Translations under genes and position numbers: made by a program
Notes under the pieces: model-generated
Seen by the model: only the letters and a program-made list of their open reading frames with translations
Told to the model about the DNA's origin: nothing
Databases searched by the model: none
Source: Geomonas ferrireducens
Lineage (GTDB): Bacteria; Desulfobacterota; Desulfuromonadia; Geobacterales; Geobacteraceae
Direction of reading: 5' to 3'
DNA: 64,000 bases
Assembly (NCBI RefSeq): GCF_004917065.1
Contig: NZ_SSYA01000003.1
Location: 124,001 to 188,000 of the forward strand
Part shown: piece by piece, positions 39,620-64,000 of the stretch
Layout: each line of letters begins with the position of its first letter
How positions within the stretch are numbered: the stretch's first letter is position 1

Positions 39620-39812
39620 AAGCTCTCTCGCTTATGGATCGGCCTTCTTCCTTTTTTTCTGTAGTCTTTTTCCTACAAGCGGACGATGCCGGAAGGGGGC
39701 GTCTGTAGTCGCAACCCCTACGACACTTGCAGCCTCTTTCGGATTTACAGGGAAGCGCCCCGGGCGGTAAAGGTGGAGCAGGTGGAGAGTCACCGCTCAG
39801 AAGGAGGGGGAA

Positions 39813-40217: not shown

Positions 40218-40691
40218 TCACAAAGGGAGCGAGGTTCTGCTCACCACGGTGCGCAGCGCGAAGGACGACTGCACCCGTAAAACGCCGGGGAGCCCGGTCA
40301 GCTTGTTGTGCAGGCGCAGGTAGTCGTCCGTGTCCTTCACCGCGACGCGCATCAGGTAATCGACGTCGCCGGACATGAGGTAGCACTCCATCACCTCGGG
40401 AACCGTGGCGATCGCCTCCTCGAAGGCCGAAAGCCTCTCGCGCTGCTGCCCGTCAAGCGTCACCCGCACGAAGACGTTCCCCGGTTTGCCCGCTCGCCCC
40501 TGATCCACCAGCATCACGTAGCGGTCGATGATGCCGCTTTGCTCCAGAAGGCGCACCCGGCGCAGGCAGGCGGACTCGGAAAGCCCGACGAGCTCGGCCA
40601 ACTGCACGTTGGTCAGCCTGCCGTCCCTCTGCAACTCGTTCAGGATGGCCCGATCAATCCTGTCTACGGCTGTTTCCGCAAGATTCCTCAT
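40218..40691 (-). CDS. Lrp/AsnC family transcriptional regulator
   Basis: A 157-residue regulator. An N-terminal helix-turn-helix (VDRIDRAILNELQRDGR, TNVQLAELVGLSESACLRRV) is followed by a RAM ligand-binding domain (GNVFVRVTLDGQ, VMECYLMSGDVDYLMRV). The ATG at 40691 has AAGGGG seven bases upstream; longer frames lack a site. It is divergent from alanine dehydrogenase with a 172-base gap, the standard arrangement for an Lrp-type activator responding to alanine. Control of ald is inferred. Confidence 0.92.
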   Translation of the reverse strand: MRNLAETAVDRIDRAILNELQRDGRLTNVQLAELVGLSESACLRRVRLLEQSGIIDRYVMLVDQGRAGKPGNVFVRVTLDGQQRERLSAFEEAIATVPEVMECYLMSGDVDYLMRVAVKDTDDYLRLHNKLTGLPGVLRVQSSFALRTVVSRTSLPL

Positions 40692-40863
40692 CGATTGCCC
40701 CTTATAGTGAAACATCCTGCGAAAAAATACCGTTTTTGTCGCTTGTTCGCAAGAAAAAATCCCGGCCGATCTGGTATGCTGAGACGCCGGTCTAATGAAC
40801 CCGGCCCGGACTGCGGTACAATGCTGACAGTCGGCACACTCATCAAGGGGAGAGGGAGCGCAG

Positions 40864-44879: not shown

Positions 44880-45249
44880 AAGGGTTTCCCCGGAAAAGAG
44901 CCGTTGACAGTTGCAGAATTCTTAAAAGAACTGGCACAGAGATTGTTGCATACCTATCAGTTTGATGCTTCTCTGTCAAAGGAATTTCGGTAATACAGTG
45001 CTTATGCGGTTAATGATGGACAAAGTAGTTACTTATTACAGTTGAATCCCGCGACATATCTGGTATAGTCCTCCGACAGACTCCATGTAAAGCCTCGCGT
45101 ACAAACATTCACACTGCCTCAGGTCCGCAGCCTGCAGCTCAGCTCCAAAGCTCGCCCTGCACGCAGCTGTTACACACAACAATGAAGCCGCCGTCTGCAC
45201 CAACCGGCCACGATTCGGCCGCGGCGCCGACCCCAATAAAGGCCTTGCC
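44880..45249. other. Divergent region between the TonB receptor and the hybrid kinase
   Basis: 370 bases without a gene. A plus-strand TGGCAC at 44932-44937 resembles half a sigma-54 promoter, but the -12 GC is missing. No riboswitch is recognised. Confidence 0.5.
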
Positions 45250-47595: not shown

Positions 47596-47640
47596 GAAGG
47601 GAGGGGGCGTGGCCACGTAGCGTGGCATTAGGCCTAGCGT

Positions 47641-47706
47641 TCCCCCTTTGCGAAGGGGGAGCCTGCCCCCCGTAGCATGCCTACGCGAAGGGGGGACAGG
47701 GGGGAT
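47641..47706. repeat. REP-like inverted repeat, copy 2
   Basis: CCCCCTTTGCGAAGGGGG starts the element, and CGCGAAGGGGGGACAGGGG follows after a GTAGCATGCCTAC dyad. The CCCCTTTGCGAAGGGG core is shared with 41995-42077. Confidence 0.7.
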
Positions 47707-47729
47707 TTCGTCTATATCAGAAGCTGCGT

Positions 47730-47987
47730 CTACTCGCTGAGTTTCCTCAAGATCCCCGCGAGTGAGCGCTTTTCATCGCAGTCGGCGCTGCAGGCGTCGT
47801 CCTCCACCTGGCAGCTCTTCTCAAGGATTACCCGTGCGTCGGGTGAGGCGGATTCGATCGACTTCAGGCAGTCTGTGTAGTCAGTGGTGCATTTATCCCT
47901 GCAGGAAGGGGAATCCTCCGCATACGCCGTAACGGCGGAAACCAGTACTGTCAGAGAAAACGCCAATACTCTGATGCTTTTGCTCAT
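47730..47987 (-). CDS. Small periplasmic six-cysteine protein
   Basis: An 85-residue precursor with a signal peptide (MSKSIRVLAFSLTVLVSAVTAYA) and a GGGAGAAAAG ribosome site. The mature ~60 residues hold six Cys in two triplets (CRDKC...DC and SC...ACSADC), the look of a disulfide-linked helical hairpin. I do not recognise the family. A perfect 12-bp palindrome lies about 30 bases upstream. It sits between the hybrid kinase and the cytochrome block, without evident operon partners. Confidence 0.65.
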   Translation of the reverse strand: MSKSIRVLAFSLTVLVSAVTAYAEDSPSCRDKCTTDYTDCLKSIESASPDARVILEKSCQVEDDACSADCDEKRSLAGILRKLSE

Positions 47988-48014
47988 ATCTTTTCTCCCA
48001 CTGTCACAGCGAAA

Positions 48015-48026
48015 AGTGACGTCACT
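48015..48026. promoter_or_regulatory. Perfect 12-bp palindrome upstream of the six-Cys protein gene
   Basis: AGTGACGTCACT is 28 bases upstream of the ATG, within probable promoter distance. The core TGACGTCA resembles a dimeric regulator operator; the regulator is unknown. Confidence 0.45.
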
Positions 48027-48059
48027 ATATCACTTCCGCCTTTGCTTTACCATTTCAAT

Positions 48060-48351
48060 GTCGTCCTACAACTGACATACCTTTAGTCTTTTTTCTCAAA
48101 AAATGTTGTTCCCTTCTCCGCCGCCTCGGCGTACCGCAAATGGATCATGCAAGTTAATGTAATTCCTTGGCGGAGTCCTTCGTGGAGTGCCGGGAAACGC
48201 GAAGCACTGCTTTCCGCGAAGCGCTGTGCGAGCCCTAATGTTCCCCCATTTGCGGGGGATTTGCTTTTTGTCGGCACTTGCAACTCCTCGGTGCTATGAA
48301 CGGCGCGTGGCAGGGGGATGGGGTACCCCTCTCAATCGAGCTTGATGCGAC
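48060..48351. other. Intergenic region between the six-Cys gene and cytochrome A
   Basis: No supported gene. Contains a hairpin CCCCC-ATTTG-CGGGGG near 48243-48258, similar in style to one at 58148-58165. Confidence 0.4.
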
Positions 48352-48384
48352 AAAAAAAAGCCCGGAACTTTCGTTCCGGGCTTC
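48352..48384 (-). terminator. Intrinsic terminator of cytochrome gene A
   Basis: On the minus strand AAGCCCGGAAC pairs with GTTCCGGGCTT around a GAAA loop, followed by a long T-run. The stem is nearly the same as that of cytochrome gene B. Confidence 0.93.
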
Positions 48385-48430
48385 GAAATTACTGCAATGC
48401 ATCAATCAAGTTGCCTGCAAGAGACAGGAC

Positions 48431-51400
48431 TTAGGGGACTTCTACAATGACAGACTGCGAGGAGACCAGGGTCGACCCGTTGAACAGCTGGATCGTGGTC
48501 TTGAAGGTGTACTTGCCGGTACCGGACTTGAAGTACTTCTCGTAGCGGTTGTACACGTGAGCCACGCCGCCTGCACCGTTGGCCGTTGCGAAGTCGGCAG
48601 CGGTAAGGGTGGTGGAGGAGCTGCCGTCACCCCAGAAGAACCTGACCTTGTCGTAGGTGGTGCCTGCGACGACGGTTACCGGCACCTTGGTTTCCTGCAC
48701 GGTGTAGGTGTATGCCGGCCTGGTGGCGGTCGCCGCGATGGTCTTGACGACGGGGGCGGTGGCCGTGCCGGTTACGGAGATCAGTACCGGGTTTGTGACG
48801 TTGACGAGCTTGTAGCTGGTTGCGGTAGCGCCGTCGACGTTGGTCACGGTAAGGGCGACCCTGTAGGTGCCGGCCTTGTTGAAGCTGATGCTGGTGCTTG
48901 CTGCGGTTGCGTCGGTGATGCTCGCTGCGGTGCCGGCGTTGGTAGCCCACTGGAACCTGGCGCCTGCAGCCGGTGTGCCGGTGGCTGCGATGGCGTAGGA
49001 GAGGTCCTTGACCAGCGGAGCCGCGGTGGTGCCCGACTCGCCGTTCACTGCTGCGATGCCGGCTACCGGGGTGGCGCCGACGCCGAAGGCCGACGCGGTG
49101 ATGCTGTTCAGGTAGGTTACGTACTGGGCGCGGGTTGCATAGCTGTTGGCGCCACGAACGATCGGGGCGGTTTTCCAGAGAGCGCCCTTCAGGCCGAACG
49201 GACCCACGTCGGAGAGCTTGTTGATGCGGATCTGGTAGCCGGCAGCGGCGTCCAGCTTCACGCCGCCGTTGGCGGCGGTGACGGTGAAGAAGGTGCTGCC
49301 GAATTTACCGGCGTTGTCAAGCAGGGTTACCAGCTGGTCAACGGTGGTCACCTTGTCGTCGGTGATCTGGACGGTGCGGCTGGTGATCACGCCGTTGCTG
49401 TCCTTCACGTCCACCTTGAGGGTCCAGCCGAGGGTGGAGGTGGCGCCCTTCTTGGCGGCGTTGAAGATGTACGCCGGATCTTCACAGTAGAACGGGCTTG
49501 CGGCGCTGCAGGCTGCCGCGATGGCACCGCCCTGGATGCTGGTTACCCAGTCCTGGTTGATGGTCTGGAAGGTGTTCTCGTAGAGAACCTCGCTGCGGTC
49601 GATGTTACGCAGGGTCTGCCCCGGGGTCGCGGTCTGAACGTAGGGACCGTCGAACTTGGTGAGGATCGGGATCGGCAGAGAGCGGGTGCCGTCTTTGGTC
49701 ACGACGTTCGGGTGCGAATCGGTGATGTCGACGAGGCCGTTCACCTTGGTGAAGGTGGTCACCTGGTTGGAGTCGAAGCTGAACTTGCCGTCCATGTTGC
49801 CGTTGATCGGGTAGGCGCCGTTGTAGAAGCCTGCGTTGGCGGCATGGCACTCCTGGCAGCCGTTCTTGCCCCACGCCCTGTCGGCGGAAGCGATGTTGTG
49901 GCTCGCCTTGAAAGGAACCATGAGGAAGGAGACCTTCGGCAGGAACGCGTTGGTCGCCTGGGTGGTGGTGTTGCCGAGCTGCCCCCTGATGCCTGCCGAG
50001 AGGGCGGCTTGCTGGGTGGCGATTTCGGCGGCGTTCACCACGCCGTCAGCGGTGAGGGCGTGCAGGCCGTTTATGCGGTTGATGTTGGCCACATGGGTCT
50101 GCAGCAGCGGATCCATGCCGGCCTCGCGGCCGTCGTTGTTGGCGTCGAAACCGCCGTTGATGGTCTTAAGGCCGTTCATGTCGCGCCAGAAGAAGGAGGT
50201 CAAGAGGTTGGCGGCGTAGATCTTGCCGTTCTGCCAGTGCAGCGCGACGCCGTTGTTCATGTTGCCTTTGGCGACGTACTCGGTGTCGTGGACTGCCAGA
50301 CGCCCTTCCTCGTCGGCGCCGGTGCCGTCGACGAACGCGCCGCCGCTGAAGCCGTCCTTACGGATGTGGCAGGCGGTGCAATCGATGAGGTCGATGTGGC
50401 TTACCTGTGCGCCCGCCTTATCGTAGGCGATCTTCGCGGTCAGGCCGGCCCTGTCGTGAGCGCCCTTGGAGTTCGGTGCGCCGAAGGTGGCGAAGGCCGG
50501 AGCGGTGGCGTACTCGTGGCAGCCGGAGCAGTCCTTGAACTCCACCTTGTCCATCTTGTTCCACATGGCGTCAAACGGAGAAGCGCCGCCCTTGGCGGGG
50601 TCGCACAGGCCGAGCTTGTTGTCGCCTATGTTGCCGCTCACGCCGACTTGGGCGGTGGTCCCTGCGGTAGCGCCGGTGCGCTCATGGCAGCCCATGCAGC
50701 CGATGGCGCCGTGGACGTCGAGGATGGTGCCGTTCTGGCTCCACATCTCGCCGCGCTTCTTCCAGTCGACCTGGTATTTCTCGCCGCCGGTCACGGTCAC
50801 TACGCCGGTGATTGCATCCTTGGTCTCGATGGTGTTGCCGAGGTGACAGGAGGAGCACTGGTTGGAGGTCGGCTTGCCGACGATCTTGTACTCGAGGTTG
50901 GCGACCAGGCCGGCCGGGGTGGCGGTTACCGAGGTCGAGTTGTAGAAGACGTTCACGCCGTCCTTCGCGGAGAAGGCCAGCTTGGAGCCGACGGCGCGGG
51001 AAGCGTCGAACTCACCCTTGCGGACCGCGTCCTTGCGCTTTTCCCAGCTGTAGTCGTTCTGGTGGCAGATGAGGCAGTCCATCTCGAGAACGCCGGTCTG
51101 GGAGTAATCCTGCACCACCACGTTGCCGCGGTTGGCCGGGGTGTCGTTGAAGATGTCGATCAGGGCGTTGAAGGCGGTGACTGCGCCGCCGAAGACGTAG
51201 TCGCGGAGCGACTTGCGCTTGTTGGCGTCGTAGGTCCCGGAGGTGGCTGCGCTGTCGTCGACCATGTATTCCATGGCGCCGCCGCCGACGTGGCACTCGC
51301 CGCAGTCGCGCATCTCGCCGGCCACGGAGTTGTCCGCCTTCTGGGCGAAGGTGGTCGCGTCGGTGAAGTTGTACGGCTCGTAGTACTTGGTCGCGCCGCC

Positions 51401-51952
51401 AACGAGGTTGGCCACCCTGGAGGTGCCGGAAGCAACCTCACCGAAGAGAACGGTTTCAAACTGGGCCGTGGTCGCGTTGTAAACCGCACCTGCACCGTCT
51501 TTGTACATTCTCGCCAACTGGCGAGCAGACGGCGGTCACCAAGACCCCACATGCCCGGGGCTCTGCACCCAGTTTTTACCCTGGGGGCCTGCGCCGGTGC
51601 GGAAAGCGTCGGACGAGTCGATGTTGAACGGGTTGAAGCCGCGGATCTCGTTCGCGCCAAGCTGTGCGTGGTAGGAGTGCTTTTCGATGTCGTCGTAGGT
51701 GTACTTGAGGACGCTCGAGGTGCCGGCGGCAGCGTCACCGTGGCAACCGGCGGTGCCGAAGCAGGTCGTCTTGATGCTGTAGGCTTTTGCGGAGCCGTCG
51801 GCGTTCTTGGTGATCGCCTGGCCTGCCGGATCCTTGAGCGGGATCTGTTTGTGGGCAGAGACGGAAGCCATCGCCATCCCCGTGCCGACCCCGATAAGGG
51901 CGGCGCAGGAAGCGGCGGTAAGCAGCACCGTCTTCTTGGTGGGTTGTTTCAT
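48431..51952 (-). CDS. Multiheme c-type cytochrome A with in-frame TGA (predicted selenocysteine), 1173 aa
   Basis: Read through TGA codon 139 (51536-51538), the frame encodes 1173 residues. Codons 1-138 give a signal peptide (MKQPTKKTVLLTAASCAALI), an atypical heme motif CFGTAGCH (CX5CH), SYHAQLG, and QSPGHVGSW just before the TGA. The same frame resumes PPSARQLARMYKDG. After it come seven CXXCH motifs (CGECH, CLICH, CSSCH, CMGCH, CSGCH, CTACH, CQECH). The last ~260 residues are PKD/Ig-like domains ending SSQSVIVEVP. The downstream part alone has no signal peptide or convincing ribosome site. The ATG at 51952 follows AAAGGAG at good spacing; an ATG at 51955 is also possible. Likely a periplasmic or outer-surface electron carrier. 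Confidence 0.85.
51495..51538 (-). promoter_or_regulatory. Candidate bacterial SECIS element of cytochrome A
   Basis: Sixteen bases after the TGA begins loop AGTT, closed by a 6-bp stem CTCGCC (51525-51520) / GGCGAG (51515-51510). A lower stem CCGTCT (51532-51527) / AGACGG (51500-51495) encloses it. Distance, a G in the first two loop bases and small loop fit the general bacterial SECIS model. Confidence 0.7.
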
Positions 51953-52265
51953 CATGGGTCTCCTTTGTCTCGATTCAATGGAAGTACGAATCACATCTTG
52001 CGTCCGGTATGGGGGTACCGTTCGCCATCTGCAGTCCTGCTTCAGCTTTAGAGAGCCTGGATTCATCATTAGCACGGGGTGTGCCGCTATTTTATTTTTC
52101 TCACTAAATTTTTAAAACAGTAGTAATTGCTAAAACTTCCGTGACGCGTTTCATTGGGACGACAGGGGGGGCGGAAGGGGATGGGGTGTTTGTTGGGGTA
52201 AATACCCCAAGTTCACCCAGTGACTGGGGGGCTTTTACCCCAATGTGGGGGTAGGGTGGTGTAAA
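51953..52265. other. Upstream region of cytochrome gene A
   Basis: No gene. It contains the palindrome at 52193-52210 and further GGGG/CCCC-rich dyads between 52160 and 52255. A short AT-rich stretch near 52085-52135 may hold the promoter, but I cannot place it. Confidence 0.45.
52193..52210. promoter_or_regulatory. Palindrome TGGGG-N6-CCCCA upstream of cytochrome A
   Basis: TTGGGGTAAATACCCCAA, about 240 bases upstream of the cytochrome A start. The same TGGGG-N6-CCCCA layout occurs at 60841-60856. Probable protein-binding site, regulator unknown. Confidence 0.45.
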
Positions 52266-52267
52266 CG

Positions 52268-52306
52268 GCAAAAGAGCAGGTGGGGGAGCCCCTCCTGCTC
52301 TTTTGG
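52268..52306. terminator. Terminator of the parvulin gene (bidirectional form)
   Basis: AAAAGAGCAGG / CCTGCTCTTTT with an inner GGGG/CCCC stem, 23 bases after the parvulin stop, T-runs on both strands. Confidence 0.85.
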
Positions 52307-52328
52307 TGTGTGTAAGTGTTTGCGATTC

Positions 52329-53357
52329 TTAGGCTTTTTCTATCTTTGCCTTTTCTCTGAGCTCCTTGAGCAGGGCGGGGATCTCCGCGCGTACCTTTTC
52401 GCGCTTCAGGTACTCCACGATTTTCGCCTTAACCTCGTCGAAGGGCTGTACGCTGGGCGGGAGGGCCTCGGTGAGTTTGATGATGTGGTAGCCGAACACG
52501 GTGGAAACGACCCCGCTGATCTCGCCGGGTTTCAGCCCGAAGGCCGCTTTTTCAAACGGGGGAACCATGTCCCCCTGGCCGAAGACCCCCAGGTCGCCAC
52601 CCTTCTCCTTGCTGGGGCAGGTGGACTCCTTCCTGGCGATCTCGGCGAAATCTTCGCCTTTCTTGATGCGCTCCAACAGGGCCTCGGCTTTCGCCTTGGC
52701 CTCGTCCTTTTCCTTCTGGGAGGCGCTCTGGCTGACGCCCACGAGGATGTGGCTTGCCCTCACCCTGGCCCCCTGCTCGAAGTACTTGGTACGGTTGTCG
52801 TCGTAGAACTTCTTCGCATCGCTTTCCGCCACCTGCACCTTGGAGCCGAAGCGGACTTCGATCATGTTGTTGATGGCGATGTCCTTGCGGGTGAATTCCT
52901 CAAGGTCCTTAGGGCTCATGAGCAGCTCGTCCATGGCGGCCTTGTATTCGGCGTCGCTCTTGAACTTCGCTCGGTTCTCGGCGAGGGCCTTCTTCACCTG
53001 CTGGTCCAGGTCCTTCATCTCGACCCCCTTAGACGCCTGGTACAAGAGCTCCGAATCGGTGAGTTGCTCGAGGATGGTGTCCTGCGCCTTCTTGAGCGCT
53101 TCGGGGACGAGTTGCTTGGTGCCGGTCTGCTTCAGCATGATTTTCAGGGCGCGGTTGACTTCCTTGCGGATGATCGGCGTGCCGTTCACCTTCACCAGCG
53201 TCTCGTCGGGTGACGGCTGCGCCGCCTGCGCTGCCTTGGCCGCCAGGGCCGCGGCGTCTTTGACTGTGGCCTCTTCCGCAAACGATGCACCTGCGCCCAT
53301 GGTCATGAGCATGATTGCGGCAACGGTGGACGATACGATCTTCTTCGGGTGCGGCAT
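52329..53357 (-). CDS. Periplasmic parvulin-type peptidyl-prolyl isomerase (SurA/PrsA-like)
   Basis: A 342-residue exported protein with signal peptide (to GASFA). An N-terminal SurA-like helical chaperone region (about 50-190: VKVNGTPIIRKEVNRALK, ILEQLTDSELLYQ) is followed by a rotamase domain (about 195-300: VRASHILVGVSQSASQKE, GGDLGVFGQGDMVPPFEKAAFGL, FGYHIIKLTE) with the conserved His residues. A Lys-rich C-terminal helix follows. It assists folding of exported proteins. Sitting between the two large cytochrome genes on the same strand, it is probably their dedicated foldase, though it has its own terminator. Confidence 0.9.
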   Translation of the reverse strand: MPHPKKIVSSTVAAIMLMTMGAGASFAEEATVKDAAALAAKAAQAAQPSPDETLVKVNGTPIIRKEVNRALKIMLKQTGTKQLVPEALKKAQDTILEQLTDSELLYQASKGVEMKDLDQQVKKALAENRAKFKSDAEYKAAMDELLMSPKDLEEFTRKDIAINNMIEVRFGSKVQVAESDAKKFYDDNRTKYFEQGARVRASHILVGVSQSASQKEKDEAKAKAEALLERIKKGEDFAEIARKESTCPSKEKGGDLGVFGQGDMVPPFEKAAFGLKPGEISGVVSTVFGYHIIKLTEALPPSVQPFDEVKAKIVEYLKREKVRAEIPALLKELREKAKIEKA

Positions 53358-53433
53358 GGTTGATTCTCCTTGTCTTTGAGCTGCTCCAGGCGCGTCTTGC
53401 TCCCGACGTCGGCCCGAAAATCCTGTCCCTCTA

Positions 53434-53466
53434 CCAAAAAGGGCCCGGAACTTTCGTTCCGGGCCA
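53434..53466 (-). terminator. Intrinsic terminator of cytochrome gene B
   Basis: On the minus strand GGCCCGGAAC pairs with GTTCCGGGCC around GAAA, then CTTTTTGG. It is almost identical to the terminator of cytochrome gene A. Confidence 0.93.
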
Positions 53467-53509
53467 TGGATTTACATCACTGCATGTTCATCGAAGTTCC
53501 ATTGTTGCA

Positions 53510-56500
53510 TTACTGTACTTCTACCTTCACAGACTGCGAGCTGACCAGGGTCGACCCGTTGAACAGCTGGATCGTGGTCTTGTAGGTGTACTTGTTGGTA
53601 GTAGCGTTCAGGTACTTGCTGTACCGGTTGTACACGTGCGCCACGCCGCCTGCACCGTTGGCCGTTGCGAAGTCTGCAGCGGTGAGGGTGGTGGAGGAGC
53701 TGCCGTCACCCCAGAAGAACCTGACCTTGTCGTAGGTCGGGGGGGTAAGCGTGAAGGTTACCGGCACCTGGGTCTGCTGTACGGTGTAGCTGTAAGCCGG
53801 CCTGGTGGCGGTGGCAGGGATGGTAGTGGTGACCGGTGCGGTGGTGGTGCCGGTTACTGCGATGTACACCGGGTTGGCTACGTTGACGAGCTTGTAGCTG
53901 GTTGCGGTAGTGCCGTCGACGTTGGTCACGGTAAGGGCGACCCTGAAGGTGCCGGCCTTGGTGAAGGTGATGCCGGTGTTTGCTGCGGCCGGTGCGGAGA
54001 TGATCGCGCCCGGTACTGCAGGAGGAACTGCGGTGTCACCAGCGTTGGTTGCCCACTGGAATTTGGCGCCGGCTGCCGGGGTGGTGGCGGGGGCGAAGTT
54101 GTAGGAGGTCCCCTTGATCAGCATAGCTGCGTTGGTGCCGGTCTCGCCGTTCACTGCCGCGATGGTTGCGACCGGTTTCACGCCGAGGCCTGCTGCGGTT
54201 GCGTCGAAGTTTTGGGCGATGGACTCCATGTAATCGGCGTAAGCAATGCCGTTCACAGGGGTTGCGCCAGTCTTGATGCTGCCGTCGTCGTTGGTGTCTG
54301 CGATCTTGTAGTAGATGGCGCCGTCTTCGGGCGGATACAGGATGTCTGCACGCTCAAGATCGGTGGTCCAGGTGTAGTTAGCATCGCTCTTCTGGAACTT
54401 CACGGTGCGCGGCTGGCCGAGCTTGTTGAAGCCTTCGAATGCGGTGCGGAGGTCGCCGAGTTTCGCCTTGACGCGTACCGGCTCGAGCGGACGACCCATC
54501 AGGTTGCTGGCGGAGTCGAGGCTCGGGATGCCAGGGATGCGGGTGACGGTGCCGCTCGTCTGGTCGATGGAGACCTGCGAGGTCGGGTTGAAGGTGTGGT
54601 CGGCCGGGATAGCGGTGCCGACCATGTCGAAGCCGCCTTTGAAGAAGCCTGCGCCCGGTGCATGGCAGTCTGCGCAGCTCTTGCCTTTAACGTACTGCTG
54701 TACCGGCTTCACGCCGTGGGTGACCATGAACGGAGCGCCGATGTAGGCGAGTTCGGTCTTGGTCCAGTCCTTGCGCAGTGCTGCCGGTTTCATGCTCTCA
54801 AGCTGGTTGCGGTAGTTCTTGTAGTCGGTGATCTGGTAAGGCTCGGTGAAGTTCACCGCGCCGCTCCAAACGCTGACGTACTTCCAGTAGTTGGCCGGAG
54901 AGAAGGTGCCGTCCGGCATGAATGCGGAGCCGGAAGCGGTGCTCATCGGGTCGTTGAAGCCGATCGAGATGACGGAGAGGGCGGAAGGACCGAAGTTCAT
55001 GCCGGCCTTCAGGTCGCGCTGGATCCACGGGTCGTAGATCGGCTCGCCGTAGCCCTGGGTGTTGTTCTCGTGCGGCGGCAGGCCGTCGAAGACGTCGGTG
55101 TAGCCGACCAGCGAGGGCTTGGTCGGGACCAGGTCGCCGCCGGGGACGGTGTCGCCGTTTGCATCGACGTTGGAGTCGGTGTTGTTCCAGATGACTGCGG
55201 AGATCGCGTTGCTCAGGTAGATCTTGCGGCGGAACTTCATGCCGCTCTTGTCGCTGTTGCCGAAGCTGAGCGGCGCTTCCATGTTGCCGAGTCTCTGCCA
55301 GAGGTTGAGCGGTTTCCACTCTTTGAGCGCGCCGCCCACCACGTGGGTGCCGGCCGGAATGGGCGCCTGGTAGCCAGGCATACCTTCGGTAAGGCCCATG
55401 GCCTGGTTGATTGCTGCGAACATCTGGTTGTACTGAGCGACTGCGCCTGCGTTGAACGCATCGGGAGCCGGATCCTCGAACAGGCCGATCATCCCCTTGG
55501 AGGGATCGGTGCCGACGATTGCCGGGAAGCGCATACCGGAGGTGGCGTCGAGGGCGCGTACCGCCATGCTCTTCTTCTGTACGTGGCAGACGGTGCAGTC
55601 CATGACGTCGAGGTGGTTGCCGCGGCCGAGCTTGTTCTTGTCGGAGGTGAAGTTGGTGTGCTCGGGTACGCCCTGGCCGCCGAAGCCGGCCTGCTCGGTG
55701 TCGAACTTGTCGACGATCTGGACGATGTTGTTGTTCAGGCCGTACTGGGTGTGTGCCGCATCCGGGTTCGGCGCGCCGAAGGTCTGGATGGGGTTGCCGT
55801 AGTAGTCCTTGCCGGTGATGTGGCAGAACTCGCAGCGCTTGACGGTGTTGCGGGTGTCGTGCTTCTGAACGGCTGCGGCAATCTCGCCACCTACGGCGAG
55901 GACCGGCTTACCTTCTGCGTCGTATTCCTTCACGACCTGACGCTTCCAAAGCGGCGGAACGCCGTCCTGGGTGGTGCTGGACATGTCGAAGCCGCGGCCC
56001 GGGTCGCACTGGTTCTTGTTGGTGCTGTTGCCGGTGAAGTGGCAGCCGGCGCAACCGAAGGAACCGTGGACGTCCTGGCCTGCCTGCCATGCGTCGCCAC
56101 GCTTGAACCACTCTGCGCGCGGGAACGGCATGGTGGAACGCTTGAGCGCGTTCTGGTCAGGCATGGAGCCGTCGGAGTTGTAGTAGTAGAGCGGGCCGGA
56201 CTGGGCCGGGTTGCCGCCGCCCATGAAGCCGGTAGCGCTCGCAGGGCTGTAGAAGGTCTGCTGCGCCTGCACGTACGGCATGCCGGGCATCATGTACTGA
56301 GTGTAGTTGTCCATGGTGATGACCGGGGAGGACCCGGTGGACATCCACATGGCGTTGATGTCGAAGGAGGTCATCCTCTTGCCGTTGGGGCCGACGCCGT
56401 TGTTCGGGTCGAAGATCATCGGCGCGGAGGAGAGGAAGCCGCTGCTGGTGCCGGTGACGCCGAACATCTCGGGGAGATTCTTCAGGGTCTTGGTGGCGTG

Positions 56501-57760
56501 GCACTGCATGCAGTTGTTGGAGTCCGGCGCGCCCTTGATGCGGCCGAGCAGGCTGGTGGAGAGCGACACGGTCTGCATCCCGTTGCCGGCATCGGCGAAG
56601 GTCACGTTGCCGTTGTACTGGCTGTAGCCCATGTAGGTCGGGCTGGCCGGGTTCATGTCGAAGAGCATGGCGCCGGCGGCCGGCGCGGCGTTCAGGCTTC
56701 CTGCCTGGGTCATCACGGAGGACATGACGTTGTCGTAGCCGGAGAGGTGGCAGAAGAAGCAGTCCATCTCCTTAACGTTAGGCACCATGAGCTGCTTGGC
56801 GTAGACCGGCATCGCTTTGGTCGCGTCGCCGGGGAAGTTCGGGTTCGGCATGCTCATCGGCTGGCCCCAACCGCTGGGGGCGATGATCGCGCCGTTGTTC
56901 GGCTTGCTCGGGTCAGGCCTGTTGCCTGCGTAGGCCGGGTAGACCCACGGAGCGATGGTTGCGAAGGAGGATTCGATCCCCTGCGCGCTGAAGTTCTCCC
57001 ACACGGTGCTGGTGAAGGGGTTCACGTCGCCCATCGCCATGTCGGTGAGGGTCTTGTAGGGGAGCCTGTTGCCGTTTCTGTCCTCTTCGTAGGCGATGCC
57101 GCCCGGATGGCAGGTGCCGCACATGGTCGCCTGGTCCCACAGGGAGAGGTCGACTTTCGGGTACGGTTTGCCATCGGCGCCAGTGCCGCCGTTAAGGAAG
57201 AGGTAGAGGCTGGTGCCGGGGGTCTGAGAATCTCTTACCGCGTCGCCGGTGCTAGGAACGGTGCCCGGGTATGCGATGCCTTTGCCGTCTGCTTTTTTCT
57301 GTAAGTCCGCCACCTGGCGGAGCGAGGGGGTTCACCACTTGCCGTTGTGGCCGTGGGACTGCAGCCAGGGTTTCTGCGGGTTGAGGCCCGTCTGCTTGCC
57401 GTTCTCCATGAACAGGCCGCTGTCGGAGTTGTCCATCCACTCGGCGGTGCCGAGGGTGGCGTGGTATGCGCCCTTGGACATGTCGGTGTAGCTCTTGAGC
57501 CCGGCGGTGTTGCCCGGGGTGTGGCAGCCCATGGAGCCGCCGCCCATGCAAGTCTGTTTCGGGCTGTAGGGCATGCCCTGTTTGGAGGTCGGGTCCACCA
57601 TGACCGGCATGGCGGGTGCGCCGTACTGCTGCGCTACCTCCTCATAGGTATAAAGCTGGATTGCCGGGTGTGCCGCTTGGGCAATCGTCCCGCCTACGGT
57701 GAGGCCGGCTACCGCCGAGGCCCCCGCCAAAAGCGAGATTTTCAATCCCCTTTTTTTCAT
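53510..57760 (-). CDS. Multiheme c-type cytochrome B with in-frame TGA (predicted selenocysteine), 1416 aa
   Basis: Read through TGA codon 143 (57332-57334), the frame encodes 1416 residues. Before the TGA are a signal peptide (MKKRGLKISLLAGASAVAGL), an atypical heme motif CMGGGSMGCH (CX7CH), AYHATLG and LQSHGHNGKW. After it the same frame continues TPSLRQVADLQKKADG. Seven CXXCH motifs follow (CGTCH, CFFCH, CMQCH, CAGCH, CEFCH, CTVCH, CADCH), then ~280 residues of PKD/Ig-like domains ending SSQSVKVEVQ. Order and flanking residues match cytochrome A, so they are paralogues. The ATG at 57760 has GAGAGGG upstream. The downstream frame alone would lack an export signal and so could not bind heme. 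Confidence 0.87.
57306..57334 (-). promoter_or_regulatory. Candidate bacterial SECIS element of cytochrome B
   Basis: Sixteen bases after the TGA begins loop AGGT, closed by TCCGCC (57321-57316) / GGCGGA (57311-57306), a perfect 6-bp stem. The AGGU loop recalls the loop of the E. coli formate dehydrogenase SECIS. Spacing is identical to cytochrome A. Confidence 0.72.
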
Positions 57761-57895
57761 AGGTTGTTTCCCTCTCAGTCTCTTGATTGGATTTGAAATA
57801 AATTGCACTGTGCTGCCTCTTTGTTGCTGCTACTTCGGACCTTCAGGTCGCCGTGTGAATGGGGGCACATGACGACTGCGCCGGACCAGGTTTAA

Positions 57896-57960
57896 GGCAT
57901 CACCGGTACGGTGTGAAGAGAGCTTGTCAGGGTAATAGCAATTGTCGTACCTGTGATGCC
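57896..57960. repeat. Long inverted repeat in the leader of cytochrome gene B
   Basis: The 15-base arms GGCATCACCGGTACG (57896-57910) and CGTACCTGTGATGCC (57946-57960) are inverted with one mismatch around 35 bases. It lies 136 bases upstream of the ATG, in the likely 5' untranslated region or promoter. Confidence 0.8.
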
Positions 57961-58021
57961 GATCACTGCGTCTCCAGCCGCAAAAAAAACGCATGCGGTC
58001 GGGCTGATGAGGAGATCGTGC

Positions 58022-58050
58022 TTGGAAACTTATATAATAATTGATATATT
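58022..58050 (+). promoter_or_regulatory. Possible sigma-70 promoter in an AT-rich patch
   Basis: TTGGAA, 17-base spacer, TATATT on the plus strand. The patch is AT-rich enough to match by chance and there is no gene close downstream except the lipoprotein 300 bases away. Confidence 0.3.
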
Positions 58051-58301
58051 GCACTCGACCTCCGCCTCAGCAATTTTCAGTATGGGCACAGCCCTGGTTC
58101 CCCCTTCCGTGGCAGGCTCTGAAAAAAGGTGCGAAGAGTGCGGTGATTTCCCCCGCATGGGGGAACGCTGGGGTGAAATCGCCCACGTTCGACAGGTGCA
58201 GCCGGCGGTGCGATGGTTTATGACGGCACGGCAAACCGGAAAAGCAGCGGTGGGGCGCATCTGTAACGCGGCGCTGCTCGCGCGGCTGGAAACGTTCAAG
58301 T

Positions 58302-58317
58302 TGGCAGAGAGGTTGCA
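58302..58317 (+). promoter_or_regulatory. Candidate sigma-54 promoter of the BamE-like lipoprotein
   Basis: TGGCAGAGAGGTTGCA matches the RpoN consensus except one base, with exact spacing. Predicted start about 29 bases before the ATG. Confidence 0.62.
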
Positions 58318-58356
58318 CGTTTTGCGTGCGGTATTTTATTCATATCAGGAGGTCAG

Positions 58357-58791
58357 ATGATGAAGAGGGTTGGTTTGCTGGTTCTGGGCGCGTTTTTGGG
58401 AGGGTGCATGCATGCCGCACCCGGGGAAGTGAAAAAGGAAGCCGCGCCTGCTACGGTGCAGGCGCCTAAGAAGCTGGAGCTTAGCGAGGCTTCGCTTGCG
58501 GAACTGATCGTGAAGGATAAGACCACCAAGCAGGAGATCTTGGCGGCATTCGGCAGTCCTATTACCGTCGAACCTAATCAGCGGCAGCTTTCCAAGGAGA
58601 TGCTGGCCACCATCAAGATCGCCCTGCCTCCCATTGCCCGCACCAAGGAATTCTGGAAGTACAACGCACTTCCCTTTAACGCCGACGGCTCGATGAAGAG
58701 TAAGGTTCTGAGCGCCATGATCTTCATTGACGACAACGGCGTAGTGGTCGACTACATGACCTCATACACCCACGTCGCTCCTCCCCAGTAG
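58357..58791 (+). CDS. BamE/SmpA-like lipoprotein
   Basis: A 144-residue precursor with AGGAGG ribosome site. The leader MMKRVGLLVLGAFLGGC ends at a lipobox (LGGC, Cys17); an ATG at 58360 would drop one Met. A Pro/Ala-rich linker precedes a small alpha-beta domain with the BamE/SmpA-type opening LIVKDKTTKQEILAAFGSP, ending in strand LSAMIFIDDNGVVVDYMTS. BamE is part of the outer-membrane assembly complex, but many Geobacter lipoproteins carry this fold in other roles. The gene appears to be controlled by a sigma-54 promoter, unusual for a core BAM subunit, so a specialised role is more likely. Confidence 0.75.
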   Translation: MMKRVGLLVLGAFLGGCMHAAPGEVKKEAAPATVQAPKKLELSEASLAELIVKDKTTKQEILAAFGSPITVEPNQRQLSKEMLATIKIALPPIARTKEFWKYNALPFNADGSMKSKVLSAMIFIDDNGVVVDYMTSYTHVAPPQ

Positions 58792-58915
58792 TCAGTCCAT
58801 CCCGGGGAATGCCCCGCACTCGCCCTTCGGGCAAACTTCCCCCTTGCGGCGCGAAGGCCCCTAGGGGGTGAAGTCCGCGGTGCGAGAGACGAGGTCGGCG
58901 AAATAAGCGACGGCA

Positions 58916-58959
58916 ACAAAAAAGGCTCCTCTTCGAAAGAAGAGGAGCCTTTTTTGTTG
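58916..58959. terminator. Terminator after the lipoprotein gene
   Basis: AAAAAAGGCTCCTCTTC pairs with GAAGAGGAGCCTTTTTT around GAAA. T-runs on both strands, so it also serves the convergent gene at 58974. Confidence 0.93.
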
Positions 58960-58973
58960 TATCCCGGTGCCGT

Positions 58974-59210
58974 TTAAAGCTGGGGACGTGACCGTTGGGG
59001 ATGACAGCTGACGGACGCACCTCCCGCGCATCCTTGCATCATACCGACTGCCGCATCCGCGCCCCGGCCGGCGGGCGCGCTTTTCAGGCTCACCTGCCGC
59101 TCCACCCCCAACGGGGCCATCTCCACCCTTGGCGCAAGCCCGATCCCCGCTGCGAGGCAGGTGAGGGCGCCTACCAGGATCGCCGTGCATTTCTTGCTGA
59201 GTCTTTCCAT
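58974..59210 (-). CDS. Small exported hypothetical protein, 78 aa
   Basis: An AAGGAG site lies 8 bases before the ATG. The N-terminus MERLSKKCTAILVGALTCLAAGIGLA is a signal peptide or anchor. The rest is low in recognisable features, Gly/Ala-rich, with two Cys (GCAGGASVSC) and a basic end. It lies between a convergent terminator and the dockerin-type gene 24 bases upstream, so it may be the second gene of that unit. I do not recognise it. Confidence 0.5.
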   Translation of the reverse strand: MERLSKKCTAILVGALTCLAAGIGLAPRVEMAPLGVERQVSLKSAPAGRGADAAVGMMQGCAGGASVSCHPQRSRPQL

Positions 59211-59233
59211 TGCCGCTGCTCCTTACCCCTTTG

Positions 59234-60685
59234 CTACCGTGTCGGCAGGTTTTTTTGCACCTGCTTGAAGGTTGATAGCTCGTCCACGGGATAACCCGCC
59301 ACCGGTTTGGCGAGGTTGTACGTCTGGGTCGGGTCGACCGTGGACATGATGTTCTTGTCGGTCACCGTGTTGCCGTCGAGTTCGAAGACGGTCCAGGTGT
59401 TACCGGACTTGTTGGGGACGGTGTAGCTCTTCACGAGGGTGGTGCCGCGGAAAAGCTTGAGCTGGGCGCCGGACTCGGCGAGGTAACCGGTGGCCGAGTT
59501 GTTGTAGACGTAGAAGCGGTAGACGCCTGCCTGCTGGGTCAGGATGGTGAAGGTCTCGCTGCCGTTGTCGACGCCGTGGTTTGCCTGGTCCTGGTCGAGG
59601 TATGCCTCGGTGGTCGCACCGGGGAGGTTCCTGAGGGTCGTGCCGGTGATGGCGCTGCCGTACGGGTAACTGGTCTGGGGGTCGGCGGTGCTGGTGCCGA
59701 CGTGGAACCTCGGGGTGTTGTTGGACCCTATGGTGGTGAAGGTGTCGTCCGGGTTCAGGGGGCCGGTTACGTGGAGGTCGAGGTCGCGCTCGGCGCTCCC
59801 CCAGCTGAGGACGGCGCGGTAGGTGGTGGAGGGTGGCGTCCCGGTATCCACGGTGAAGTTCTGGCTGTTGTTGTAGGTGGACACCCCGGGGACGGAGTAG
59901 ACGGTGAAGTAGCCGTAGCTGGTCTCCACCCCGTCAACGAGCTTCACCACCTCCGCCGTGTAGCACCCGGCGGGGAAGTAGTCCTTGTAGTAATACCCGT
60001 AGCCGTCGGCCGTCTTGGCCAGGTAGGTTCCGGTGGTGGCGCCCAGCCCCGGGCGGAACCTGACCGTCAGGGCCGCACCGGTGTTGTTGGAGGCGTTCAG
60101 GACATAGCCGTTGATCGAGGTGGTGAGCGAAGCCTTGTCGGTCGTGAGCATGAGGACGGTTTCAAGTGCGGTGGCTGCACTCTGGCTCGGCTTGACGCCG
60201 TAGTAGTTCACGTCGCCGTAGCCGGTTTTGCTGAACACGAGCTGATAGGTGCTGGCCGCCGAGAGTCCGGAGAGACTGTAGCTGCCGGTGCTTTGCACCG
60301 TGGCGGTTGCCGCGGGGGTGCCTGCGCCGTCGGCGTACGCCGTCACGGTCGCCCCGGTGACGGCCAGCCCGGAGATCGGGTCCTTCACCGTGCCGGTAAC
60401 GGCGAGCGCCGGGATCATGACCGGGAGCCCGAGGTAGGCGTTGACCACGTTGCGCAGCTCTGTTATCGTGACCGCGCCGCTTTGGTCGGTGTCCACGCAG
60501 GACGTCGCGGTCTTGGTGCCGAGGAACATGTTGATCGCCCCCTGCACCTCGATCATAGTGACGCTTCCGTTCCCGTCGCAGTCCCCGGGTAGTGCGGTTG
60601 CGAACGCGGAAAGGTTGGAAATGAGGAGGGCGGCGCAGGCGAGCGCGACGATGAGTCCCCGTTTGTACAGGTCTGCCAGCTTCAT
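59234..60685 (-). CDS. Secreted protein with dockerin-type EF-hands and carboxypeptidase-regulatory-like domain
   Basis: A 483-residue exported protein. The start MKLADLYKRGLIVAL has AGGAG seven bases upstream. After the signal peptide are two calcium-binding EF-hand loops of dockerin type (DCDGNGSVTMIEV and DTDQSGAVTITEL, each ending in a helix ending YLG or FLG). A CarboxypepD_reg-like beta sandwich (about 100-185: ALAVTGTVKDPISGLAVTGATV) follows, then repeated beta domains including YRAVLSWGSAERDLDLHVTGP, similar to YfaP-type domains. No catalytic motif is seen. Probably a cell-surface or matrix protein. Dockerin here does not imply a cellulosome. Confidence 0.75.
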   Translation of the reverse strand: MKLADLYKRGLIVALACAALLISNLSAFATALPGDCDGNGSVTMIEVQGAINMFLGTKTATSCVDTDQSGAVTITELRNVVNAYLGLPVMIPALAVTGTVKDPISGLAVTGATVTAYADGAGTPAATATVQSTGSYSLSGLSAASTYQLVFSKTGYGDVNYYGVKPSQSAATALETVLMLTTDKASLTTSINGYVLNASNNTGAALTVRFRPGLGATTGTYLAKTADGYGYYYKDYFPAGCYTAEVVKLVDGVETSYGYFTVYSVPGVSTYNNSQNFTVDTGTPPSTTYRAVLSWGSAERDLDLHVTGPLNPDDTFTTIGSNNTPRFHVGTSTADPQTSYPYGSAITGTTLRNLPGATTEAYLDQDQANHGVDNGSETFTILTQQAGVYRFYVYNNSATGYLAESGAQLKLFRGTTLVKSYTVPNKSGNTWTVFELDGNTVTDKNIMSTVDPTQTYNLAKPVAGYPVDELSTFKQVQKNLPTR

Positions 60686-60840
60686 GTAGTTTCTCCTGCT
60701 TTGCGGTGCGGAAAATGGCCCGCGCGGCCCCGCTGCGGCGCCACTGCGGCTGCCGTTTTCCAGCAAATACGGTGCCACTTGCCCCGTGCGCCGTCAGTGC
60801 CTCCCCCGCGCGGGTTTGCGTGTTTCGCCCCATGGGGCTA

Positions 60841-60856
60841 TGGGGGATATGCCCCA
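60841..60856. promoter_or_regulatory. Palindrome TGGGG-N6-CCCCA in the divergent region
   Basis: TGGGGGATATGCCCCA lies between the dockerin-type gene (155 bases away) and the kinase (140 bases away). It has the same layout as the site at 52193-52210. Confidence 0.45.
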
Positions 60857-60996
60857 GTTTTTGTCAGGCGTTGAGGTTATAGGTGGGGCAAATCGCTCGA
60901 TTGTGCCCCGGGAGCGGGGCTCACCCCCGTCTGCAGGCACCTCCGGCGCTCTGGCGCAGGTTTTGCTCCGCTGCATTCATTTACGGCGAGGTGATC

Positions 60997-62385
60997 ATGA
61001 GTACCAACCTTTTTACCAGCATCGTGCTTAACCTGACCGACGGGATCTACGTGATCCAGGAGGGGAAGGCTATCTTTTTGAACGACCGCTTCGGGGCGAT
61101 TTTCGGCTACCCGAGCGTCGAAGGGCTGATCGGCCGCGACATGTACGCCGACGTCTATCCCGACCGGCAGAGCGTCGACCTGTTCCGCCACGTGCACGAG
61201 CAGCTCTTGAAGGGGGATCGCTCCGCGGTCTCCTGGGGGCAGCCGTCGGCGCGGCTTGACGGCAGCGTCTTCTGGATCGAGGTGGAAGCGCGTCTCATCG
61301 AGGTGGAAGGTAAACCCGCCATCTTCGGAACCTTCCTGGACCGCACCGACTGCAAGCTGATCGGCGAGGCGATGCATGCGACCCAGGAGACCCTGCGGCT
61401 TCTTTTGGACGCCATGGAGGACCGCGTTTACGTCGTCACCGACGACTACCGCATCGTCTACGCGAACCGCAAGATGCGCGAGGGGCTTTTGGGGGATCTC
61501 GAGCAGGACTTCTGCTACCAGGTCTGCCGCGGCCAGCAGACCCGCTGTGAGGACTGCTGCGTCGACGACGGGTTCTTCGACTCCGAGCGCCCCCTGCACA
61601 AGGAGTTCTACAACGAGGTGACCAAGCTTTGGTACTCGGTCATCGAGCTTCCCGTCCGGATGCCCGGCATCGAGCAGCGCACGAAGCTCGCCGTCGCCCG
61701 CGACATCACCGTGCGACGGGAGGCCGAGAACAAGGTGCGCGCTCTCACCCGGAAACTTCTGAGCGTGCAGGAGGACGAGAGAAAGCACCTCTCCAGGGAG
61801 CTGCACGACGACCTCGGGCAGCGCTTGAACGCCGCGAAGATCATCGTCGACGTTCTCGCCGAGGACCTCGCTTCCTCCCCGGGTGATGCTCCCGCCCGGA
61901 TGCGTCATCTCTCCGAGGTGCTGAAGGACAGCGTGCAGTCGATCCGCACCATCTGCGCCGGCCTGCGCCCCTCGCCGCTTGAGAAACTTGGGCTTGTCGA
62001 CGCCATCCGCCACGACTGCGACAGTTTCTCGACCCACCACGGGGTGAACGTCCGCTTTTCCGCCCATGGACTGGAAGGGGTGCGCCTCCCCCATGAGGGT
62101 GAAATCACCCTGTACCGGGTATTCCAGGAGGCGCTGCATAACGTGGTGAAGCACGCGCGGGCAAGCGAGGTGGCCATAAGCCTCGTCGTTTCCCACCCGG
62201 TGCTCAGGATGCGCATCACCGACAACGGCAGGGGATTCGATCCCGCTCGCGCGGTCCCCGCCGGAAAAGCGGGGCTCGGGCTCGTCGGCATGGCCGAGCG
62301 GGTCGAGCTTTTAAACGGCTCCTTCGAGCTCACCTCCCGCCCCGGGAAGGGGACGCGTATCGCCGTGGAGATTCCCATCGCCTAG
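60997..62385 (+). CDS. Soluble PAS-PAS sensor kinase, HisKA_3 type
   Basis: A 462-residue cytoplasmic kinase without membrane segments. The GAGGTGATC site supports the ATG at 60997. The first PAS domain is at about 8-125 (NDRFGAIFGYPSVEGLIG). The second, at about 135-250, contains an unusual Cys cluster (FCYQVCRGQQTRCEDCC), which could hold a metal, an iron-sulfur centre or redox disulfides. The NarX-type DHp H-box is SRELHDDLGQRLNAAK, with ATPase motifs ALHNVVKHA, DNGRGFD and GLGLVGMAERV. It pairs with the NarL-type regulator 41 bases downstream. The Cys cluster suggests redox or metal sensing (inference). Confidence 0.9.
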   Translation: MSTNLFTSIVLNLTDGIYVIQEGKAIFLNDRFGAIFGYPSVEGLIGRDMYADVYPDRQSVDLFRHVHEQLLKGDRSAVSWGQPSARLDGSVFWIEVEARLIEVEGKPAIFGTFLDRTDCKLIGEAMHATQETLRLLLDAMEDRVYVVTDDYRIVYANRKMREGLLGDLEQDFCYQVCRGQQTRCEDCCVDDGFFDSERPLHKEFYNEVTKLWYSVIELPVRMPGIEQRTKLAVARDITVRREAENKVRALTRKLLSVQEDERKHLSRELHDDLGQRLNAAKIIVDVLAEDLASSPGDAPARMRHLSEVLKDSVQSIRTICAGLRPSPLEKLGLVDAIRHDCDSFSTHHGVNVRFSAHGLEGVRLPHEGEITLYRVFQEALHNVVKHARASEVAISLVVSHPVLRMRITDNGRGFDPARAVPAGKAGLGLVGMAERVELLNGSFELTSRPGKGTRIAVEIPIA

Positions 62386-62426
62386 CGCCCTCGCGGCGCC
62401 GGCTTCAATTCGAGGAGGTTTTTTGC

Positions 62427-63101
62427 ATGGAAGGAAAAAGCAGGGTCATCATCGTTGACGATCACCCCCTGTTTCGTGAAGGGGTGAAGGGGCTTGTGGA
62501 GCGAACCTCCGAGTACACCTGCATCGGTGAAGCGGGAAGCGGCGCCGAGGCGCTGGCGCTGGCCAGGGAGCTGAAACCCGAGCTCATGACCATGGACATC
62601 TCGCTTCCAGATGTAAGCGGCATCGAGGCGGTGCGCCAGATCATGCGCGAGGTCCCGTCGGTGAAGATCCTCATGCTGAGCATGCATCCCAAATTCGAGT
62701 ACGTGGCCGAGGCCCTGAGGGCCGGAGCGCGCGGCTACGTGATGAAAGAGGCGACCAGTACCCGACTAGTGGCCGCCATGGACGCCCTGCGGCGCGGCGA
62801 GTACTTCCTGGACGGGCAGGTCTCGCAGGACATCGTGGCGAACCTGGGGAATTCCGGTCAGGGGGAAGCCACGGTGTGCGACGAACGGTACGCGCTTTTG
62901 TCCCCCAGGGAGCAGCAGGTGATGCGACTGGTCGCCGAAGGCGGGGTGATACGACAGATAGCGTCGGATCTGGGGCTCAGCGTGAAGACGGTTGAGAACC
63001 ACCTCACAAACCTCATGAAGAAGCTCGATGTGCACAGCAGGATGGAACTCGTGCGCTATGCGGCGCGTCTTGGGGTTATCGATCTGGAGCAGTGGAAATA
63101 G
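62427..63101 (+). CDS. NarL/FixJ-type response regulator
   Basis: A 224-residue regulator with a GGAGG ribosome site. The receiver (about 6-125) has VDDHPLFREGVK, phospho-acceptor Asp in TMDISLPDVSG and Lys in VMKE. The LuxR-type helix-turn-helix (about 158-220) reads LSPREQQVMRLVAEGGVIRQIA, then LGLSVKTVENHLTNLMKK. It is the cognate partner of the PAS-PAS kinase upstream. Targets unknown. A GC-rich hairpin at 63116-63153 follows. Confidence 0.93.
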   Translation: MEGKSRVIIVDDHPLFREGVKGLVERTSEYTCIGEAGSGAEALALARELKPELMTMDISLPDVSGIEAVRQIMREVPSVKILMLSMHPKFEYVAEALRAGARGYVMKEATSTRLVAAMDALRRGEYFLDGQVSQDIVANLGNSGQGEATVCDERYALLSPREQQVMRLVAEGGVIRQIASDLGLSVKTVENHLTNLMKKLDVHSRMELVRYAARLGVIDLEQWK

Positions 63102-63115
63102 GTAGGAAGTTAGAG

Positions 63116-63153
63116 GGCCCTGCCGGCAGAGGATGGTCGCTGCCGGCAGGGCC
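63116..63153. terminator. GC-rich hairpin between convergent genes
   Basis: GGCCCTGCCGGCAG / CTGCCGGCAGGGCC, a perfect 14-bp stem with 10-base loop, 15 bases after the regulator stop. It lacks a strong T-run. Confidence 0.65.
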
Positions 63154-63163
63154 ATAGCGGTTG

Positions 63164-64000
63164 TTACAGCTTTGCGGTTGCGTCTTTCTTGCCCTGCTGA
63201 TCCTGCATTTCCTGCTGTCTCTTGCGTTCCTTGAGGATCTCCTGGGCCTTGTGCTCCCTTTCCTCCGCCGCCTTGCGGTATGCGGCATCGTAGTCGACCC
63301 CCTTCAGCTTGCCAAGCCCGTAGACCCCGATCTTGTTCTCGCCGAACTGGTTCGCCACGAAGATCACCTCGGAGAGTTCGAAGTCCTTCTGGGCCAGTTT
63401 CTGGAAATAGTCCAGATCCCTTTTGCTGATGGAGATGTCGCTGGGGAGGTTCATCCCCCCGACCGGAAGCTTCGCCGAGCCGAAGTAGCCCAACAGGCGC
63501 CCCTTGTCGCTGAAGATCTGCACGTTCTGGTGCCCGGAGTCGACCACGTAGACGTAGCCGTTCTCGTCCGTGGCAATCCCCTTCGGACGGGCGAACTGCC
63601 CCATGCCGTCGCCGAACTTGCCGAAGGTGCCGAGGAAGTGGCCGTCGCGGTCGTAGGAGGTCACCGTCCCCCTGCCGGCGTTGGTGACCCAGAGGACCCC
63701 TTTGTCGTCGAGGCTCATCCGGGTGGGGAGGCACAGGGACTGGTTCGGGTCGTCCATCTTTCCGATCTCGCGGATCTGCGCTCCCGTCATCGGGTTCAGC
63801 ACGCGGATCACGGATTTCCTCGTGTCGAGCACGTACAGGTTCTCGTCATCGACCGCGATGTCGGTCGGCGTGAAGCCTAAGTCCCCTCCGATGGATTTCA
63901 GGTACTCACCGTTGTTGTCGTAGATGAGGACCTCCTTGCGTTCGATGTCGGACGCGAACACGAAGCCCGTGCTGTCCACGGCAACGCCTACCGGTTTCTT
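63164..64000 (-). CDS. NHL-repeat protein, C-terminal part (cut by window edge)
   Basis: The frame is open to the window end, so this is the last ~278 residues of a longer protein. It is built of NHL-type propeller repeats: GFTPTDIAVDDENLYVLDTRKSVIRVLN, LPTRMSLDDKGVLWVTNAGRGTV and RPKGIATDENGYVYVVDSGHQNVQIF, in each of which a strand is followed by Asp-x-x-x-(V/I). The C-terminus is a long charged helix (AAEEREHKAQEILKERKRQQEMQ). NHL proteins often accompany envelope cytochromes in Geobacter, possibly as scaffolds. The start and any signal peptide lie outside the window. Confidence 0.85.
   Translation of the reverse strand, partial: KKPVGVAVDSTGFVFASDIERKEVLIYDNNGEYLKSIGGDLGFTPTDIAVDDENLYVLDTRKSVIRVLNPMTGAQIREIGKMDDPNQSLCLPTRMSLDDKGVLWVTNAGRGTVTSYDRDGHFLGTFGKFGDGMGQFARPKGIATDENGYVYVVDSGHQNVQIFSDKGRLLGYFGSAKLPVGGMNLPSDISISKRDLDYFQKLAQKDFELSEVIFVANQFGENKIGVYGLGKLKGVDYDAAYRKAAEEREHKAQEILKERKRQQEMQDQQGKKDATAKL

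Follow-up and report, generated by a model that had tools for sequence, protein, structure and literature searches.

In-frame UGA codons very likely read as selenocysteine in multiheme cytochromes of Geomonas ferrireducens and related Desulfobacterota

In a stretch of 64,000 nucleotides from the genome of Geomonas ferrireducens, referred to below as the window, two paralogous genes for multiheme cytochromes, A and B, are each interrupted by a TGA codon in frame, and the question arises whether these codons end the proteins or are decoded as selenocysteine (Sec). An earlier note, made without database searches, had favoured selenocysteine on the grounds that codon 143 of gene B is TGA and is followed by 1273 further codons, that an AGGT loop lies 16 nt after the TGA, and that both paralogues keep the TGA at one place, each with its own hairpin. 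On the sequence, all of these observations held. Comparative evidence, in the absence of peptide, 75Se or mutant data, makes it very likely that the UGA of both genes is decoded as selenocysteine. The features concerned are as follows.

53510..57760, minus strand: gene B, multiheme cytochrome of 1416 codons, 150.9 kDa apo-precursor (translation, heme inventory and relatives with one TGA)
57332..57334, minus strand: in-frame TGA of gene B, codon 143, very likely read as selenocysteine (conserved alignment column)
57306..57321, minus strand: very likely SECIS hairpin of gene B, TCCGCC-AGGT-GGCGGA (covariation and the presence of the stem only with TGA)
48431..51955, minus strand: gene A, paralogue of B, multiheme cytochrome of 1174 codons, 123 kDa apo-precursor, with a PKD-like C-terminal domain and Sec140
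51536..51538, minus strand: in-frame TGA of gene A, codon 140 (sequence)
51510..51525, minus strand: very likely SECIS hairpin of gene A, CTCGCC-AGTT-GGCGAG (sequence and covariation)
52329..53357, minus strand: parvulin/SurA-type peptidylprolyl isomerase gene, between B and A (NF000809, E 6e-42, below the cut-off of that model)

On the minus strand, gene B starts with ATG at 57760 and, after the TGA at 57334-57332, remains open for 1273 codons until it is closed by a stop at 53510. The loop AGGT (57315-57312) follows the TGA at 16 nt and is enclosed by the arms TCCGCC (57321-57316) and GGCGGA (57311-57306). Gene A starts with ATG at 51955 and its loop, AGTT, is likewise found 16 nt after the TGA. 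The two TGA codons fall in a single alignment column and the C-terminal parts of the proteins are 73% identical. Both proteins carry a signal-like N-terminal segment and eight heme sites, comprising C71-X7-C79-H80 and seven CXXCH motifs in B, and C65-X5-C71-H72 and seven CXXCH motifs in A. Sec143 of B and Sec140 of A lie N-terminal of seven of the eight hemes. The PKD-like domain is located near the C-terminus of A. Pfam assigns Cytochrome_C7 to A and Cytochrome_C554 to B, both of them short generic heme-motif models barely above cut-off, and no other Pfam or NCBIfam family reaches its cut-off for either protein.

The isomerase gene adjoins gene B in many relatives, and its product is inferred to be a dedicated folding helper for the cytochromes. 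Upstream of gene B, at 59234-60778 on the minus strand, is encoded an exported-looking protein of 514 residues with dockerin/EF-hand-like segments discerned by eye and no NCBIfam match. Two further frames in the window that contain a single TGA were rejected: the first, at 39231-40985, has the look of accidental read-through beyond a small regulator gene, and the second, around 59234-60976, does not share the frame of the gene actually encoded there.

Among relatives, nearly all matches to A and B that span the site carry a single TGA, and most have no other in-frame stop. In the named genomes, the TGA is present in 35 of 35 copies of A or B, from 23 loci in Geomonas, Geotalea, Oryzomonas, Geomesophilobacter and metagenome-assembled genomes of Geobacteraceae or Desulfuromonadaceae. 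The region downstream is also conserved, with 43-85% identity over the aligned protein and the seven CXXCH hemes, which supports the earlier claim that sequencing error or decay is a poor explanation and counts against a protein ending at residue 142. For about 100 distinct homologues of wider origin, the residue at the site is U in 78, C in 10, S in 8, Q in 2, L in 2 and G in 1; the mixture of U and C is the usual exchange of Sec and Cys, Sec is replaced mostly by Cys or Ser, and Trp was not found among these homologues. The occurrence of Ser, Gln or Leu in some of them implies that a selenol is not required in every member. The surrounding motif is SPGxxGxW-U-PPSxRQLA and it lies between heme 1 and heme 2. 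In some Geomonas genomes, a further paralogue, C, occurs in tandem between B and A (loci L079-L081 and L078; L182:13752-16832, L183:13707-16784 and L185:13839-16940), in which Ser stands at the Sec position and the hairpin is absent, and it constitutes a natural non-selenium sister at the same locus.

The strongest evidence that the hairpin is a SECIS, which we consider very likely on comparative grounds and without readthrough data, is its strict association with the UGA codon. The four inner stem pairs form in all 96 TGA-bearing homologues and in none of the 18 homologues whose residue at the site is Cys, Ser or Gln, despite the same RQL-type peptide in the latter. Of the 96 TGA loci, 94 have TTG or GTG as the Leu/Val codon of the loop, the exceptions being one ATG and one TCG, whereas this codon is mostly CTN where the TGA is absent. 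When synonymous codons, drawn from the two cytochrome genes of the window, were resampled, a mean of 4.3 and a maximum of 12 of the 96 loci were fully paired. No relative with the TGA was seen to have lost the stem, the outcome set beforehand as refuting.

Stem covariation across related genomes, a check put forward in the earlier note, was also tested, and compensatory exchanges are present. In a set of 20 varied sequences, 96.7% of the cells were paired and the covariation was 0.352, against 0.124 for shuffled sequences (0 of 500) and no more than 0.114 for slid controls, although three of the six pairs are invariant in this set. Among the 96 TGA loci, the inner pairs are exchanged between C-G, G-C, A-U and U-G. 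Thus B genes with Asp carry CTC..GA[CT] (Leu CTC) and B genes with Asn carry CTT..AA[CT] (Leu CTT), while the corresponding codons in gene A are GCT..AGA; further changes accompany amino acid replacements, namely CGA..TCG with Ala to Ser in locus L058 and CGG..CCG with Ala to Pro in L191 and L192. Since pair and covariation counts are inflated by the relatedness of the sequences, the contrast between TGA and non-TGA homologues is the stronger test. In most members a four-base loop, AGGU or AGUU, follows the TGA at exactly 16 nt. Folding energy of the single sequence would not by itself have revealed the gene B hairpin (z -0.74, which is ordinary; z -2.44 for gene A), and the case therefore rests on comparative evidence. 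An Rfam scan of positions 44000-64000 yielded no RNA family.

The genome of Geomonas ferrireducens carries SelB, SelA and a tRNA-Sec (anticodon tca, i.e. UCA) and, together with the covarying stem, this supports the selenocysteine reading. A SelA match was found in every relative with A or B, but also in 86 of 97 genomes sampled, and because most of the sampled genomes have SelA this co-occurrence is weak evidence by itself. Much stronger is the position of the genes: of 24 loci, 9, drawn from several genera (L188-L193, L196, L199 and L200), have selA and/or selB adjoining gene B, usually past the isomerase gene. It is possible that this adjacency to the genes of the seleno-cytochrome and isomerase reflects a mobile or co-selected selenium module.

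Selenium-containing cytochromes have been described earlier. ExtKL, a multiheme cytochrome of Geobacter, had previously been suggested to contain Sec (PMC1914089, PMC5877670), and a review of the prokaryotic selenoproteome from 2026 (PMC13188914) includes, among cytochromes, ExtKL and an octaheme cytochrome of the tetrathionate reductase family; neither A nor B matches the cytochromes listed there. ExtKL (NF040886) resembles A and B in being a predicted Sec-containing multiheme cytochrome of the same bacteria, and a copy is present as a separate gene in the Geomonas ferrireducens genome. It differs, however, in its size of about 450 residues, its five hemes, the location of Sec C-terminal of all hemes and the motif IPDGU. 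Against the NF040886 model, with a cut-off of 250 bits, A scored 10.5 bits (E 0.16) and B gave no match, and A and B are set apart from ExtKL both by this score and by their Sec not being C-terminal of a pentaheme domain.

A likeness is also seen to octaheme tetrathionate reductase (OTR; TIGR04315, PDB 1sp3), which has eight hemes and a Cys or Sec between hemes 1 and 2, as in A and B. Profiles of the wider octaheme module align with those of OTR over hemes 4-7 (probability 99.5, E 3e-23) and show the two to be distantly related, but the alignment does not reach the Sec column. While 24 of 35 members of the wider module match TIGR04315 weakly, the best module member attains 54.4 bits against a cut-off of 375 bits, and A and B do not match. 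Moreover, the OTR motif is NNFU and that of the A/B family GxWUPPSxRQLA, and A and B have two to three times the length of OTR. In 1sp3, position 64 belongs to the motif NNFC, immediately ahead of heme 2, and the 2004 paper on the OTR structure reportedly places Cys64 in the active-site pocket. The corresponding residue is U in 11 of 20 OTR members from Desulfobacterota (L203, L206, L209, L210, L212, L214-L218 and L220), nine of which share a conserved hairpin, CTGGTGC-AGGT-GCACCAG, with its AGGU loop 24 nt downstream. The equivalence of the A/B selenocysteine to Cys64 is inferred from heme order alone. Seven more octaheme cytochromes that match TIGR04315 are encoded in the Geomonas ferrireducens genome (contigs C1 and C2); two of them are above cut-off and none has an internal stop.

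Two other systems invite comparison. The SECIS of fdhF is an in-frame hairpin just past the UGA with an AGGU-type loop. By general form rather than by sequence comparison, the hairpins of A and B resemble it in lying within the coding frame just past the UGA and in their AGGU-type loops, a likeness to formate dehydrogenase put forward in the earlier note. A difference is that the loop of the A/B family has four bases, AGGU or AGUU, in most members at the distance given above. The octaheme sulfite reductase MccA carries a CX15CH heme site (PMC7096707) and thus shares with the A/B family one heme motif of expanded spacing, but in the latter this motif is that of heme 1, with a spacing of 2 to 14, and no sequence match between MccA and the A/B family was found.

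Of 395 sampled genomes of Desulfobacterota, 82 had matches to the profile of the N-terminal module; the family is phylum-wide and not a curiosity confined to one locus. Its members include the giant PKD-bearing form and compact proteins of about 650-880 residues, some of which are membrane-fused, and the spacing of heme 1 is unusually variable across the family, from CX2CH to CX14CH (window positions 57521-57550 in gene B). In L160 and L173, the Sec-containing octaheme module is fused to a membrane domain of the formate dehydrogenase gamma/cytochrome b561 type, from which it may be inferred that members of this kind exchange electrons with the quinone pool, as possible quinone-linked selenoenzymes. 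No earlier catalogue entry for the A/B family was found in open-access papers or NCBIfam release 20.0 and, within those limits and without excluding earlier notice elsewhere, it appears to be a widespread, uncatalogued family of selenium-containing cytochromes.

In the mechanism that we propose, SelB and tRNA-Sec very likely decode the UGA owing to the hairpin with its AGGU or AGUU loop 16 nt downstream, and the polypeptide, bearing eight heme c groups at the sites shown, would be exported, as inferred from its N-terminus. The selenol within SPGxxGxW-U-PPSxRQLA lies between hemes 1 and 2 of the octaheme module, and its most likely role, inferred by analogy with Cys64 of OTR, is that of a catalytic or heme-pocket residue beside an active-site heme; electrons would pass along the heme chain, and the C-terminal PKD-like region may hold the domain outside the cell as a tether or spacer. 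The AlphaFold2 models of both the A and B cores are poor (pLDDT 37.7 and 36.7, from alignments of 16 and 18 sequences) and thus do not establish that Sec is close to a heme. There is no solved structure related to A or B by sequence; among solved structures, the profile of the N-terminal module retrieved no credible hit and that of the wider module mostly NrfA-type cytochromes, via common heme motifs. A catalytic role of Sec near a heme, which is inferred only, could as readily prove wrong as right. Substrate, location and catalysis are inferences, and to name oxyanions of sulfur or selenium, or polysulfides, as substrates is no more than a guess.

Several alternative explanations merit consideration. 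If the TGA were a genuine stop, or resulted from decay or sequencing error, the product would end at residue 142 and the remainder would be a pseudogene or a separately started protein; in favour of this, a reading with translation table 11 splits the gene and the downstream open reading frame has a candidate GTG start at 57313. Against it stand the TGA in all A/B relatives, mostly without another in-frame stop, the conserved downstream region with its seven heme sites and the Cys found at the site in homologues, and a product with its own start would be without the N-terminal export segment needed for c-type heme attachment. This explanation is all but excluded. Near-cognate readthrough of UGA occurs in bacteria, and insertion of an ordinary amino acid such as Trp might be envisaged, but it is scarcely tenable given Sec machinery both in the genome and linked locally, a hairpin occurring only with TGA, and replacements that are mainly Cys and Ser and never Trp.

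The hairpin could also merely reflect the conserved peptide RQ(L/V)A, without function as RNA, and the conservation of this peptide and the three invariant pairs of the 20-sequence set lend this some support. It is virtually ruled out, however, by the absence of the stem from all 18 non-TGA homologues with the same kind of peptide, by the mere 4.3 of 96 loci expected from synonymous resampling, and by compensatory changes that alter amino acids (L058, L191/L192, and Asp versus Asn). More difficult to dismiss is the possibility that Sec is real but not catalytic, acting as a heme ligand or as a metal-binding or structural residue in an electron conduit. The Ser, Gln and Leu variants are in accord with this, the giant size and PKD-like domain fit a conduit, and a structure is lacking. 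We lean slightly against it, because Sec, like Cys64 of OTR, lies between hemes 1 and 2 and because of the general tendency of Sec to sit at redox active sites.

Decoding of the UGA as selenocysteine, our preferred reading, carries several implications. Annotation of UGA as a stop would break each gene of the A/B type into a small stub and a cytochrome lacking its N-terminal part, and therefore the family may be overlooked or taken for pseudogenes. The all-or-nothing association of the hairpin with UGA provides an unusually clean natural data set for a minimal bacterial SECIS. A bolder reading, for which we see the arguments as balanced, is that of a large, uncatalogued superfamily of octaheme selenoenzymes across the Desulfobacterota, with giant PKD-bearing, membrane cytochrome-b-fused and compact forms, in which Sec would be a catalytic selenol beside a heme and which, in Geomonas and its relatives, would take the form of a giant surface selenoenzyme, linked to selA/selB in some lineages. 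Within an eight-heme chain, a selenol would constitute a redox centre of a new kind in bacteria that export electrons, and it would render the selenium dependence of growth on extracellular electron transfer directly testable.
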